The notes: generated from the letters alone by a model not told the origin. 36,942 nucleotides of DNA from a virus (IMGVR_UViG_3300032249_000468:1-36942), one strand, 5' to 3'. Shown: positions 977-36,317, counted from the first letter of the stretch. Program-made: numbers and translations.

Positions 977-999
977 CTCCCCACCTCCGGCTACTAATG
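977..999 (+). promoter_or_regulatory. Late element copy 1 (CTCCCC-N4-CCGGCTA)
   Basis: CTCCCC lies at 977-982 and CCGGCTA at 987-993, followed by a TA-rich TACTAAT. It sits about 32 bases before the connector gene start at 1025, just after the post-capsid hairpins. The same two blocks with the same 4-base gap occur at five other places before rightward genes. Its role is inferred from recurrence and position: promoter, activator site or translational element. Confidence 0.6.
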
Positions 1000-1024
1000 A
1001 GATGCTTTTATTGATGGAGGTAAC

Positions 1025-2560
1025 ATGCCCGGTTCATACCCACGCCTAAACAGAGGCGCGATTCGTGCTAAGGTACGCACGCTTACTGCTATTGAGTCAA
1101 CCAACCTTGTAACCGATGCGCACATCAATAACATTATCAACGAGGAACTGCATAAGATAGTTAGCATTGCCGACGAACTTGAGCAGTTCTGGGTTTCACA
1201 ACCAGGTGGCGGACCAATCCAAATTACTGAAACCGGTGTCACATACCGTATTCCGGGATGGCGATTTGATAACACTACTCAGTTCCCAAGTGGGCTGCCT
1301 GGCAACTTCTACCTAAACGCGGACAATGACACACCGCCGTGGAACACAACAGGCCTGGGAGTTCATAAGGCTGGTTACTTTGATAACTTCCTTGTATACG
1401 CCGCATCCTCAAGACTGCTTCGCGAGCAAGATGATGACTCCAAGCGCTCCGAGGAGTTTGACGCACGAGCAAAGGACATTGCTGACCTGCTTATCCAGCA
1501 AGAGTATGTAGCACACAACGCCGACCAAACTCTTAGTTTACAGTCAAACGACCCTAACTTCTTTATTCGCTTGTACTTCAAAGTCTTATACCTACTAAAG
1601 ACCCCACTATCCATAGACAGCGATTACGCAAAGTCAACAGTTGAGATAGCGAGCGCAATCTACGACTCTCAAAATGAACTTCTTGGTAAGTACAAGTGGA
1701 CAGGCTATGCTGGTAGTTTCTCATTCTGGAATCCGTACGGTGACATTTTCTCTTATGCCGCAGCAGCCCGAGTTGGTGTACGCTTTGGTCTGAGCGAGGT
1801 AGAGGTTGCCTCTCTTATGTCGGAGTACCAGCGCCGCGAAGACGCACTTGTTCGTGAGAAGTTGACCAACAACACTGGTAACCTAAGTACCTCAACCGCC
1901 GGTGCTATGGTAAATCAGGTTAGCGCTTTACTACGCGACTTTAGCACTGAACTTCCACAGAATCTTATTTATAACTGGATAAACACAGAGTATCAACTAC
2001 TGGCTACTGAGCATGACTGGCCGTGGCTTACACAAGAGGCCTACATAACGGTTCCCGCAGGATTGTCCAGCATCTCTCTATCTTTCTTTGGTGTTGACTA
2101 CTCAATCCTAAATGTGTACAAGGTGAAGCAGGATGGAAACGGAAACACCGTCGATGTGCAGATTGTTCCATCCGTACCGCATACCCTCGATGGTCTTGCA
2201 AACGCCTCACAGTATCGTTACGACATCACTGATACATTCATGAACATTACACCAACACCTACCGAATCAACAACCTTCGCAATTCGGTATAAGACAGTAC
2301 CAGGCTCTCTTCTTACCGCAAACGCTGTCCCGCTATTCAAGTCAGAGTTTGCAGCGTATCTGGTATACCGCGCTGCTTATCTCGGTAGCGTGTGGAGTGA
2401 CCAGGCTAAGAAGTTGTCTCCTATGTTTGAATCAGAAGCACAACGCGTCAAGGACATGATGTATCAGTACTACATGACTGACCGTTCAACAGAACCATTC
2501 AGCATTGGCGAGAGTGGATTAGAAACTCGTAAGTACCTACCATTCTTCAAGGCGGTGTAG
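1025..2560 (+). CDS. Head-tail connector protein with repeated adaptor-like units
   Basis: This 511-residue protein follows the capsid gene, where podovirus-like genomes encode the adaptor that joins portal and tail. Similar helical segments recur: residues about 119-160 (YAASSRLLREQDDD then an acidic/basic helix), 239-279 (YAAAARVGVRFGLSE) and 439-480 (YLVYRAAYLGSVWSDQ). Two of these are preceded by an N-terminal helical stretch with an INxxxNEE or INTEYQLL pattern (about 33-57 and 318-340). It looks like two or three fused copies of a gp6/gp11-type adaptor domain. The start has GGAGG nearby (GATGGAGGTAACATG). The next gene begins one base after its stop. The family assignment is moderately sure and the repeat reading is mine. 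Confidence 0.6.
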   Translation: MPGSYPRLNRGAIRAKVRTLTAIESTNLVTDAHINNIINEELHKIVSIADELEQFWVSQPGGGPIQITETGVTYRIPGWRFDNTTQFPSGLPGNFYLNADNDTPPWNTTGLGVHKAGYFDNFLVYAASSRLLREQDDDSKRSEEFDARAKDIADLLIQQEYVAHNADQTLSLQSNDPNFFIRLYFKVLYLLKTPLSIDSDYAKSTVEIASAIYDSQNELLGKYKWTGYAGSFSFWNPYGDIFSYAAAARVGVRFGLSEVEVASLMSEYQRREDALVREKLTNNTGNLSTSTAGAMVNQVSALLRDFSTELPQNLIYNWINTEYQLLATEHDWPWLTQEAYITVPAGLSSISLSFFGVDYSILNVYKVKQDGNGNTVDVQIVPSVPHTLDGLANASQYRYDITDTFMNITPTPTESTTFAIRYKTVPGSLLTANAVPLFKSEFAAYLVYRAAYLGSVWSDQAKKLSPMFESEAQRVKDMMYQYYMTDRSTEPFSIGESGLETRKYLPFFKAV

Positions 2561-34310: not shown

Positions 34311-34552
34311 TGCTACAACTCGTGCATGTATTTGAGGAAGAGAACCGCAGTTCGTGGAAGCACCACCTGCGGGCTTTCTTTGGCCATACGCCAGATGATG
34401 GCGATGATTATAACCCAGAAGACCAGACCTACATCGTTTGCTACTGTGGAGGGCGTTTAGTGCGTCTTGGCGAGGATTCTAACAACCAGGAAGTATGCGC
34501 TGTCTGGCATAACCTTGTAAAGATAAAGGGTGATGACGATGGCGACGAGTAA
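34310..34552 (+). CDS. 80-residue protein between the terminase genes
   Basis: Coupled to the small terminase by a TAATG overlap and overlapping the large terminase start by 14 bases. It is acidic with CYCGG near residue 44 and C63. It may be a terminase accessory factor, for which gene order is the only evidence; no family is recognised. Confidence 0.5.
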   Translation: MLQLVHVFEEENRSSWKHHLRAFFGHTPDDGDDYNPEDQTYIVCYCGGRLVRLGEDSNNQEVCAVWHNLVKIKGDDDGDE

Positions 34553-36317
34553 AGAACACCGCAAGCAAATCGAACTCAACCGCCTTAGGGTGGAACTTGA
34601 GTGGCGTCGCTGTGCCAATGATGAGGATTACTTCCTCCGTAACTATGTTTTTATTCCCTCAGAGTCTGACCCTCGAGGCCGTGTAAGGTTTGACCTGTTT
34701 GACTATCAAGAGGAGTTACTCGACCTCTTCAAGTCAAACCGATTTGTTATTGCCCTCAAGGCCCGTCAGTTAGGTTATACCACGCTCGCTATGGCTCACG
34801 CCATCTGGCTCGCCTTCTTCCGTCCAGGTGCAACCATTCTTGTCGTAAGCCAGACCCAGAAGTCCGCTAACAAGAACCTGGCCCAGGCCCGTCTTGCCTA
34901 CCAGTTCCTGCCTATCTGGATGAAGGAACGGGCACCGAAACTGATTGCGGATTCTACGGACGGTCTTTCATTCCAGTTCAACGATGGTATGATTTCTAAA
35001 CTCAAGTCAGCAGCGGCAGTCGAGTCTGTGTTCGCTGGTGAAACCGCAACCCTTGTAATCCTGGACGAGGCCGGTCTTGTAGAACCAGCAACCCGTCAAG
35101 AGGATGTTTTCCGTACCCTGCTTCCTACTACGGATGCTGGTGGTTCGATGTTGATTATCTCTACATCTCGTGGTAACTACAACCGCTTTGCTAAGACTTT
35201 CAGAGGAGCCCGTCGTGGTGACTCTCAGTTCGTTGCGTTCTTCAAGCCGTGGAATGTGTCGCCGTTTATGCAGTGTACCGCTGACTGTGGTTGGTGTTCT
35301 GGTGAGAAGGGTTTGCGTACACCATGTCAAAGTAAGTACGACCTCAAGCGTCGTGAGTTTGCTGACCAACCGTGGCGCTTCTTTCAAGAGTATCCGCGAG
35401 ACGAAGAAGAGGCTTTCCGTGAGTCTGGCCGTCCTCGCTTCATGGGGTTACCTGCTGAGACTAACTTTGCCGAGATGACCTTTAGAGGTAACTTCCATTG
35501 GCAGAATGATGATGTTATTGAATTTGTTCACGATGAGAACGGTCCTCTGCGTTTATCTACACTCGATGCAGATGATAATGCTTTTTATGTCATTGGCGCT
35601 GACCCTGCCTCTGGTGTTGGCAAGGACTACTCAACTGCTCAGATTCTAACTTATGACGAGAATGAGCGTATTCAAGTAGTTGGCTACTACCACAGTAACA
35701 CTACACCTCCGACAGAGTTTGCGGCTGACCTTGACAAGATGGGCCGATACTTCAAGGGACGACAGTGGGCTGCACTACTTGCAGTTGAAAATCAAGGTGC
35801 TCAAGGTTCTCTGCCAATCAATGAACTTCATAAGCATCTGAACTACCCAAACGCCTACATGCACCAAATGTCAGGAACTAAGACAAAGAACAAGACCCGA
35901 ATGTTCGAGTTCCCGATGACCCAGGACCGGCGCAAATCCACAATTGACCGGCTTGCCCAGTACCTGGTTTTCGTAGAGGGTGAGTGCCGTATAGACGGTA
36001 TCTACCCACTATTGAGACAGGAACTTGGCCAGTTCGTTATGCAGGAGACTGCCAGCGGAAGCGTCCGCTACGCGGCAGATACAGGCTGTCACGACGACTT
36101 GGTCATGTCTTTAGCCATCGGGCTATGGGTTTTGGTGGAAGAATACCACCTGGCCTCCCCAGCCCCGGCTACTATTGAGGACAATACTTGGAAGCCCACT
36201 GGTCGAATAAGTTTGAAGTCCATCCGTGAGGCACGAGAGCGTGCAATAGTCGAGATGGAGGAAGTTCAACTACAGCAGTGGGAGGCTTTCCAAATAGGGT
36301 CTGATTTCATACGATGA
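34539..36317 (+). CDS. terL: Terminase large subunit (packaging ATPase and nuclease)
   Basis: 592 residues from the ATG 8 bases after AAAGGG; ATG 34533 and GTG 34530 are alternatives. KARQLGYTT (74-82) is the ATPase Walker A-type loop, VILDEA (173-178) Walker B, and GADPASG (D355) with a late HDDLVMS gives the RNase-H-type nuclease. It would cut and pump DNA into the prohead. Unusual is a cysteine cluster C246, C250, C253, C263 in the linker, resembling a zinc knuckle. Late element copy 6 lies in its coding end. Confidence 0.9.
   Translation: MATSKEHRKQIELNRLRVELEWRRCANDEDYFLRNYVFIPSESDPRGRVRFDLFDYQEELLDLFKSNRFVIALKARQLGYTTLAMAHAIWLAFFRPGATILVVSQTQKSANKNLAQARLAYQFLPIWMKERAPKLIADSTDGLSFQFNDGMISKLKSAAAVESVFAGETATLVILDEAGLVEPATRQEDVFRTLLPTTDAGGSMLIISTSRGNYNRFAKTFRGARRGDSQFVAFFKPWNVSPFMQCTADCGWCSGEKGLRTPCQSKYDLKRREFADQPWRFFQEYPRDEEEAFRESGRPRFMGLPAETNFAEMTFRGNFHWQNDDVIEFVHDENGPLRLSTLDADDNAFYVIGADPASGVGKDYSTAQILTYDENERIQVVGYYHSNTTPPTEFAADLDKMGRYFKGRQWAALLAVENQGAQGSLPINELHKHLNYPNAYMHQMSGTKTKNKTRMFEFPMTQDRRKSTIDRLAQYLVFVEGECRIDGIYPLLRQELGQFVMQETASGSVRYAADTGCHDDLVMSLAIGLWVLVEEYHLASPAPATIEDNTWKPTGRISLKSIREARERAIVEMEEVQLQQWEAFQIGSDFIR
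36155..36176 (+). promoter_or_regulatory. Late element copy 6, inside the terminase gene end
   Basis: CTCCCC (36155-36160) and CCGGCTA (36165-36171) with the 4-base gap, then CTATTGAGG. It is about 156 bases before the portal start and is inside the coding sequence (ASPAPAT), in another frame than copy 4. Confidence 0.5.

Follow-up and report, generated by a model that had tools for sequence, protein, structure and literature searches.

The 36.9 kb virus record analysed here (the window, meaning the whole stretch at its full length) raises the question of what a two-block word repeated ahead of its late genes does, and which protein reads it. The record looks incomplete, with the capsid gene and the portal gene cut at its two ends. 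Its late half reads rightward through the capsid end, gp11- and gp12-like tail proteins, internal virion proteins and lysis genes, where the gp11, gp12 and gp16 likeness of the proteins is drawn from gene order and not from a family match. The early block reads leftward between 20.5 and 33 kb and is followed by terS, terL and the start of the portal gene, and a strong terminator-like hairpin at 19946-19975 (minus strand) lies where the late and early transcripts meet. No cultured relative was found and the lineage is known from metagenomes only. In the search for a host, the terminase profile returned no relative from the genome_contigs collection, and tblastn of the capsid, gp12-like tail and region-4 proteins against 50,697 phage records gave no match.

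The preliminary description of this DNA had listed six copies of CTCCCC-N4-CCGGCTA at fixed spacing, and all six are found where it placed them, each on the plus (late) strand. Written as CTCCCC-N4-CCGGCTW, the word is exact at 977, 6577, 13401, 33613 and 36155 and carries one mismatch at 16731. When up to two mismatches are allowed, the window holds 8 matches against 1.11 expected, a count reached by none of 100 shuffles of the window (largest, 6), although two of the eight, at 6330 (minus) and 13019 (plus), resemble noise. Two copies had been placed inside coding ends, but in the window only that at 36155 is within a clearly real gene, terL; the ORF at 33419-33799 around the 33613 copy is probably spurious. 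The copies and their flanking structures, with 27-bp PWM scores and predicted transcript starts, are as follows.

927-956, plus strand: hairpin and T-run resembling an intrinsic terminator, between the capsid gene and the nearby 977 copy; read from sequence, with equivalents in every relative shown.
977-1003, plus strand: putative late promoter copy before the gp11-like connector/tail-tube gene 1025-2560; PWM 30.5, predicted start 999.
6577-6603, plus strand: putative late promoter copy directly 3′ of a stop codon and before virion gene 6615-7559; PWM 29.4, predicted start 6599.
13401-13427, plus strand: putative late promoter copy directly 3′ of the stop of the 1608-aa virion gene, preceding 13435 and the endolysin gene; PWM 27.1, predicted start 13423.
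16731-16757, plus strand: weak copy without A7 and T22, before the NlpC/P60-like gene 16765-17319; PWM 18.2.
33599-33606, plus strand: inverted left arm CCGGGGAG, facing the CTCCCC of the 33613 copy.
33613-33639, plus strand: putative late promoter copy that precedes terS by a long leader; PWM 31.0, predicted start 33635.
36155-36181, plus strand: putative late promoter copy inside the 3′ end of terL and before the portal gene (start codon 36327); PWM 34.4, predicted start 36177.

A first pattern scan led to two contigs with shared genes. Relatives were then collected by terminase protein profile alone, so that the motif could not bias their selection, giving 70 viral contigs that split into group A (terminase 62-98% identical to that of the window), a 42-49% group, and more distant contigs. 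All 28 group A records tested carry the motif, nearly all on one strand, and relatives do not keep the genes and lose the element: at the corresponding genes they retain it or one of its dialects. At a score of at least 12, the PWM yields 121 late-strand matches versus 1 reverse match in 31 group A contigs (439 kb, window included), and the exact core occurs in relatives as 69 distinct copies against 0 on the reverse strand and 0 in ten Markov shuffles. A stricter pattern run through 2.9 million viral contigs hit 14 stretches, all in already-known group A contigs, and no description of the element was found in the open-access literature searched.

The consensus, built from 75 distinct copies picked at one mismatch or fewer, is 27 bp long and reads CTCCCCAc-N3-CGGCTA-(A/T-rich)-T followed by R-A-R-G. 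CTCCCCA occupies positions 1-7 (C1 79%) and is followed by C8 (65%), three free positions (9-11), C12 (88%), GGCT (97-100%), A17 (79%), an A/T-rich stretch at 18-20, T22 (84%), and then R23, A24 (84%), R25 and G26 (71%). The two blocks first described are real, but the element had been drawn too short, without its end at T22 and R-A-R-G, and within CCGGCTA it is CGGCTA that is kept, the first C not being conserved in the family. The centres of CTCCCCA and CGGCT lie about 10 bp, or roughly one helical turn, apart. An inverted arm, GTGGGGA(G), 5-6 bp upstream is typical of the terS and capsid-operon copies in relatives.

Each genome carries roughly ten copies. In group A these stand before terS (in most contigs that reach it), the capsid operon, the connector and the internal virion genes, in the end of terL before the portal gene, between the 1600-aa virion gene and the lysis genes, and close to later genes; G007, G019, G022 and G027 all carry equivalents of the 13401 copy 3′ of the same virion gene. 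The connector copy sits directly 3′ of a G+C-rich hairpin and T-run after the capsid gene in 12 of the 12 regions shown, and with a terminator followed at once by the element, transcription should stop and restart there, as a promoter would serve. The terS leader at 33640-33780 (plus strand) is rich in CCGG-type inverted repeats, as are those of relatives, with the sequence changing.

The copy inside terL bears on whether the nucleic acid or the protein is under constraint. In a comparison of 24 terminase genes, using the 275 pairs that share less than 90% identity, synonymous conservation is higher at the codons of this copy than anywhere else in terL (z = 6.7). All 24 genes have TCC CCA unchanged, and at block 2 the residues vary while the bases are largely kept; the element is maintained by selection on the DNA itself, independently of the protein. 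Chance or coding constraint with no nucleic-acid function could be read into a window of only six copies, in which two of eight two-mismatch matches look like noise. That reading is refuted by the 121 to 1 strand asymmetry and the synonymous peak in terL, and the shuffled windows, as given above, also speak against it.

Two sister lineages use different words. Group B (terminase 46-48% identical to that of the window) lacks CGGCT and has (C)(G/A)CCCCR-N10-ATRRT followed by purines in the same places, with 27 distinct late-strand copies, 1 reverse copy and 0-2 in shuffles. In lineage C, whose terminases are 42-47% identical to that of the window and 65-94% to one another, the word is TGTCG-N11-ATAnnT-R, with 10 distinct late-strand copies, 0 reverse and 0 in shuffles. 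The B and C patterns were derived post hoc, and their main support is placement at orthologous sites. Across dialects, the first block and the terminal T keep their spacing to within about one base. B and C contigs do not contain the A word, and the C word is nearly absent from A and B; the looser B pattern matches 17 A copies, making A and B the closest dialects. Among phages still further away (terminase about 24-32% identity), single contigs gave no clear further dialect. The element, its strand and gene placement, the selection on DNA and the three dialects can all be read directly from sequence.

The earlier reading of a promoter with a factor site is supported by the strand bias, the placement before late operons and after the capsid terminator, and the synonymous conservation. 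As is general for phage late promoters, the element recurs 5′ of late genes and operons on the coding strand more often than chance allows, and it very probably serves the lineage as its late promoter. A Shine-Dalgarno sequence lies between position 23 and the start codon in 25 of the 28 copies with a start codon within position 40; with a start at 29 it would be kept in only 1 of these 28. The capsid-operon leaders examined, which come from 21 contigs of group A and 7 of group B and include a few near-identical ones, all form a hairpin with its 5′ arm beginning at 23-26, the stem sequences differing. From these Shine-Dalgarno positions and 5′ leader hairpins, the transcript probably starts at about position 23, just after T22; the capsid-leader hairpin could serve in part for read-through RNA and hence is no proof of the start. 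The same leader, which falls outside the window, carries a nearly invariant CGAACAAG after the 5′ hairpin in all three dialects (G019, G022, G007 and others; L055; G037; L069:10801-10940).

The element does not read as a sigma-70 promoter. Sigma-70-like sites occur at chance level, as judged by shuffles, the logo has no -35 that could pair a TTGACA-like with a TATAAT-like hexamer 16-18 nt apart, and no canonical -10/-35 is compatible with a start at 23. The ATRRT of dialect B resembles a -10 but is too near the inferred start. Positions -12 to -7 are G+C-rich in A and lack conservation in B and C, an odd feature if a sigma-70-type holoenzyme reads them. Taking T22 as the -7 of a sigma-70 promoter whose -35/-10 spacer would be occupied by the element was attractive for dialect B but was rejected because 27 of 28 close copies would lose the Shine-Dalgarno sequence and the capsid leaders their hairpin.

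An RNA element, acting as a processing site or in translational control near the ribosome-binding site, would account for the hairpins that flank the capsid-operon copies and for the AU-rich linker ahead of GAGG. Most copies, however, have no hairpin, some lie 3′ of terminators or about 170-240 nt ahead of the start codon, and an Rfam match was not found. The proposal that CTCC pairs with the ribosome-binding site is unsupported, as the core has no consistent pairing to GAGG; with copies also standing after terminators, a structural RNA reading of the core was set aside, and we regard an RNA role as very improbable.

A second kind of promoter has to be considered in view of the layout. T7-type promoters are dispersed, lie on one strand before late genes and are conserved to about +4, and the T7 gene 10 leader forms a 5′ hairpin on the capsid transcript. 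The layout here is similar and the capsid-transcript hairpin is reminiscent of that leader. A promoter for a T7-like single-subunit RNA polymerase, with a recognition block to -7, A/T melting to -1 and conserved first transcribed bases, would fit the shape of the logo, the conserved +1 to +4, the T7-like late gene order and the hairpin. Unlike in the T7 type, a cognate polymerase gene was not detected: none of 11 records gave an above-threshold match to an RNA_pol family (a highly divergent enzyme is possible), early ORFs in the 41 kb relative G019 do not exceed about 360 aa, and the conserved residues of the 1608-aa virion protein, inspected by eye, contain no polymerase motif. The word is also unrelated to the promoters of T7, T3 and SP6. 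A dedicated phage polymerase is thus a rather unlikely reader, and we return to a late promoter used by the host enzyme, for which two early proteins are candidates.

22434-22886, minus strand: sigma-region-4-only early protein of 150 aa, proposed reader; Pfam Sigma70_r4_2 4e-6.
28056-28763, minus strand: early protein with two HTH motifs, alternative reader; Pfam HTH_28 / HTH_23.

The first of these has a PDB profile match to region 4 of ECF SigE (2.7e-5) and, across 55-60 residues, a fold that matches ECF region 4; its structure model is good only over about residues 50-110. Sigma region 2 is unmatched in Pfam and the first 50 residues hold one predicted helix; because only region 4 is matched, we term the protein sigma-like and not a sigma factor. 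Orthologues occur in five group A relatives (45-70% identity), and the group A records without one appear to fall short of the early gene cluster. Versions at 26-34% identity occur in one contig each of dialects B and C, and a wider scan with the region-4 profile returned known members only. Identity between A and B is 26%, compared with 45-51% among A. Expressed as identity to the B genome G037 over mean identity to distant A genomes, the region-4 protein stands at about 0.55, the terminase subunits at about 0.7-0.8, and the capsid, exonuclease, SSB, two-HTH and NlpC proteins at about 0.9-1.4. The region-4 protein is the shared protein most changed where the DNA word changed, a correlation in very few genomes that draws on one B and one C version, each from a single record. 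Its conservation and co-divergence favour it, with moderate confidence, as the protein that reads the element.

The promoter could instead be activated by another early DNA-binding protein, such as the two-HTH protein, whose two motifs could occupy two blocks one helical turn apart and which is conserved in A and B genomes at 38-45% identity. Its similarity between A and B (38%) is about that within A (42-45%), though the DNA word differs, and we consider an activator of this kind unlikely.

Several known systems share parts of this arrangement. T4 late promoters, served by gp55 and gp33, have the word TATAAATA and a region-2-like sigma. As in T4, phage factors here would give the host core a new promoter word used at many late promoters; unlike in T4, the blocks are G+C-rich and the candidate factor has region 4 only. 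In phage 21, Q is a sigma-region-4-like HTH protein, two protomers of which bind a two-part site close upstream of the start; its subsites are TGAGCA direct repeats at a single promoter, which also has the usual promoter elements and a pause site (PMC6606751). In Caulobacter, GafZ is a sigma-like HTH protein whose G+C-rich inverted repeat lies upstream of the start of the GTA promoter, a single target with -35/-10 elements and upstream GafY and IHF sites (PMC11150451). Like both, our phage encodes a sigma-region-4-like HTH protein, and its element offers a two-part site near upstream of the late start, as for Q, and a G+C-rich site upstream of the start of virion-type genes, as for GafZ. Unlike the Q site, the two blocks are not repeats of each other, there are about ten copies, and no -10/-35 is recognised; unlike the GafZ site, an inverted arm is present only at the terS and capsid copies. 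The element and its reader may work in the manner of Q and GafZ, and we do not claim membership of either group. RinA/Ltr proteins of Gram-positive phages likewise switch on terS and structural genes, as proposed for the phage protein here, but do so from one late promoter whose repeats lie a long way upstream (-107 to -42 in phi13; PMC13123087).

The likeness to Q also admits a loading site for a processive antiterminator, which would act on polymerase initiating at the element or close by and carry it through terminators. The region-4-like fold and the position of the site, as in the Q and GafZ systems, are compatible with this, while a terminator immediately followed by a new copy favours re-initiation over read-through at that point; we judge antitermination improbable.

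The explanation that we prefer, and consider reasonably likely as a whole, combines the late promoter, host polymerase and region-4 reader; the start site, use of the host enzyme, identity of the reader and timing are what we infer. After early expression, the 22434-22886 protein would redirect host RNA polymerase to the element, acting as a stand-alone sigma-region-4-like DNA binder that engages the enzyme just upstream of the start, in the way of phage 21 Q or Caulobacter GafZ. The two blocks (CTCCCCA and CGGCT) would be followed by the A/T-rich stretch ending in T and by a purine start, R-A-R-G, at position 23, and the copies, about ten per genome, would drive separate late transcripts for packaging, portal, capsid, tail, virion interior and lysis. 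Against this explanation stand the misfit of any canonical -10/-35 with a start at 23, the conservation of the two-HTH protein as well, and the absence from the region-4 protein of region 2, the part of a sigma factor that binds core and melts the -10. More tentatively, and as a proposal that may well prove wrong, uncultured podovirus-like phages with T7-like late gene order and without an RNA polymerase of their own would use a region-4 protein to retarget host polymerase to a promoter that has no -10/-35 and a G+C-rich word at -22 to -7, protein and word having changed together at least twice to give three dialects.

The element provides a transcription map, with about ten late promoters per genome and their predicted starts, for a phage family known from metagenomes only. 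With a separate version of one small factor in each of its three dialects, the family offers a natural experiment in the joint change of promoter word and reader. If a region-4-only protein does by itself retarget host polymerase without -10/-35 sequences, it would represent a minimal polymerase takeover and a compact orthogonal promoter/factor pair.

Other features of the window stand apart from the element. The distal early region, 28000-33500, has a higher G+C content (0.54-0.59) and a strong AT skew (down to -0.23), and contains many small unassigned ORFs. Two adjacent genes, 15537-15791 and 15800-16048 (plus strand), resemble tandem duplicates of what is a single homologue in relatives. 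The small late protein encoded at 17627-17965 (plus strand; phrog_7595, unknown function) is 56-76% identical in roseophages, cyanophages and others, which gives no host name, and is 79-90% conserved across group A compared with 62-66% for the terminase, an unusually strong constraint on a late protein of this sort.
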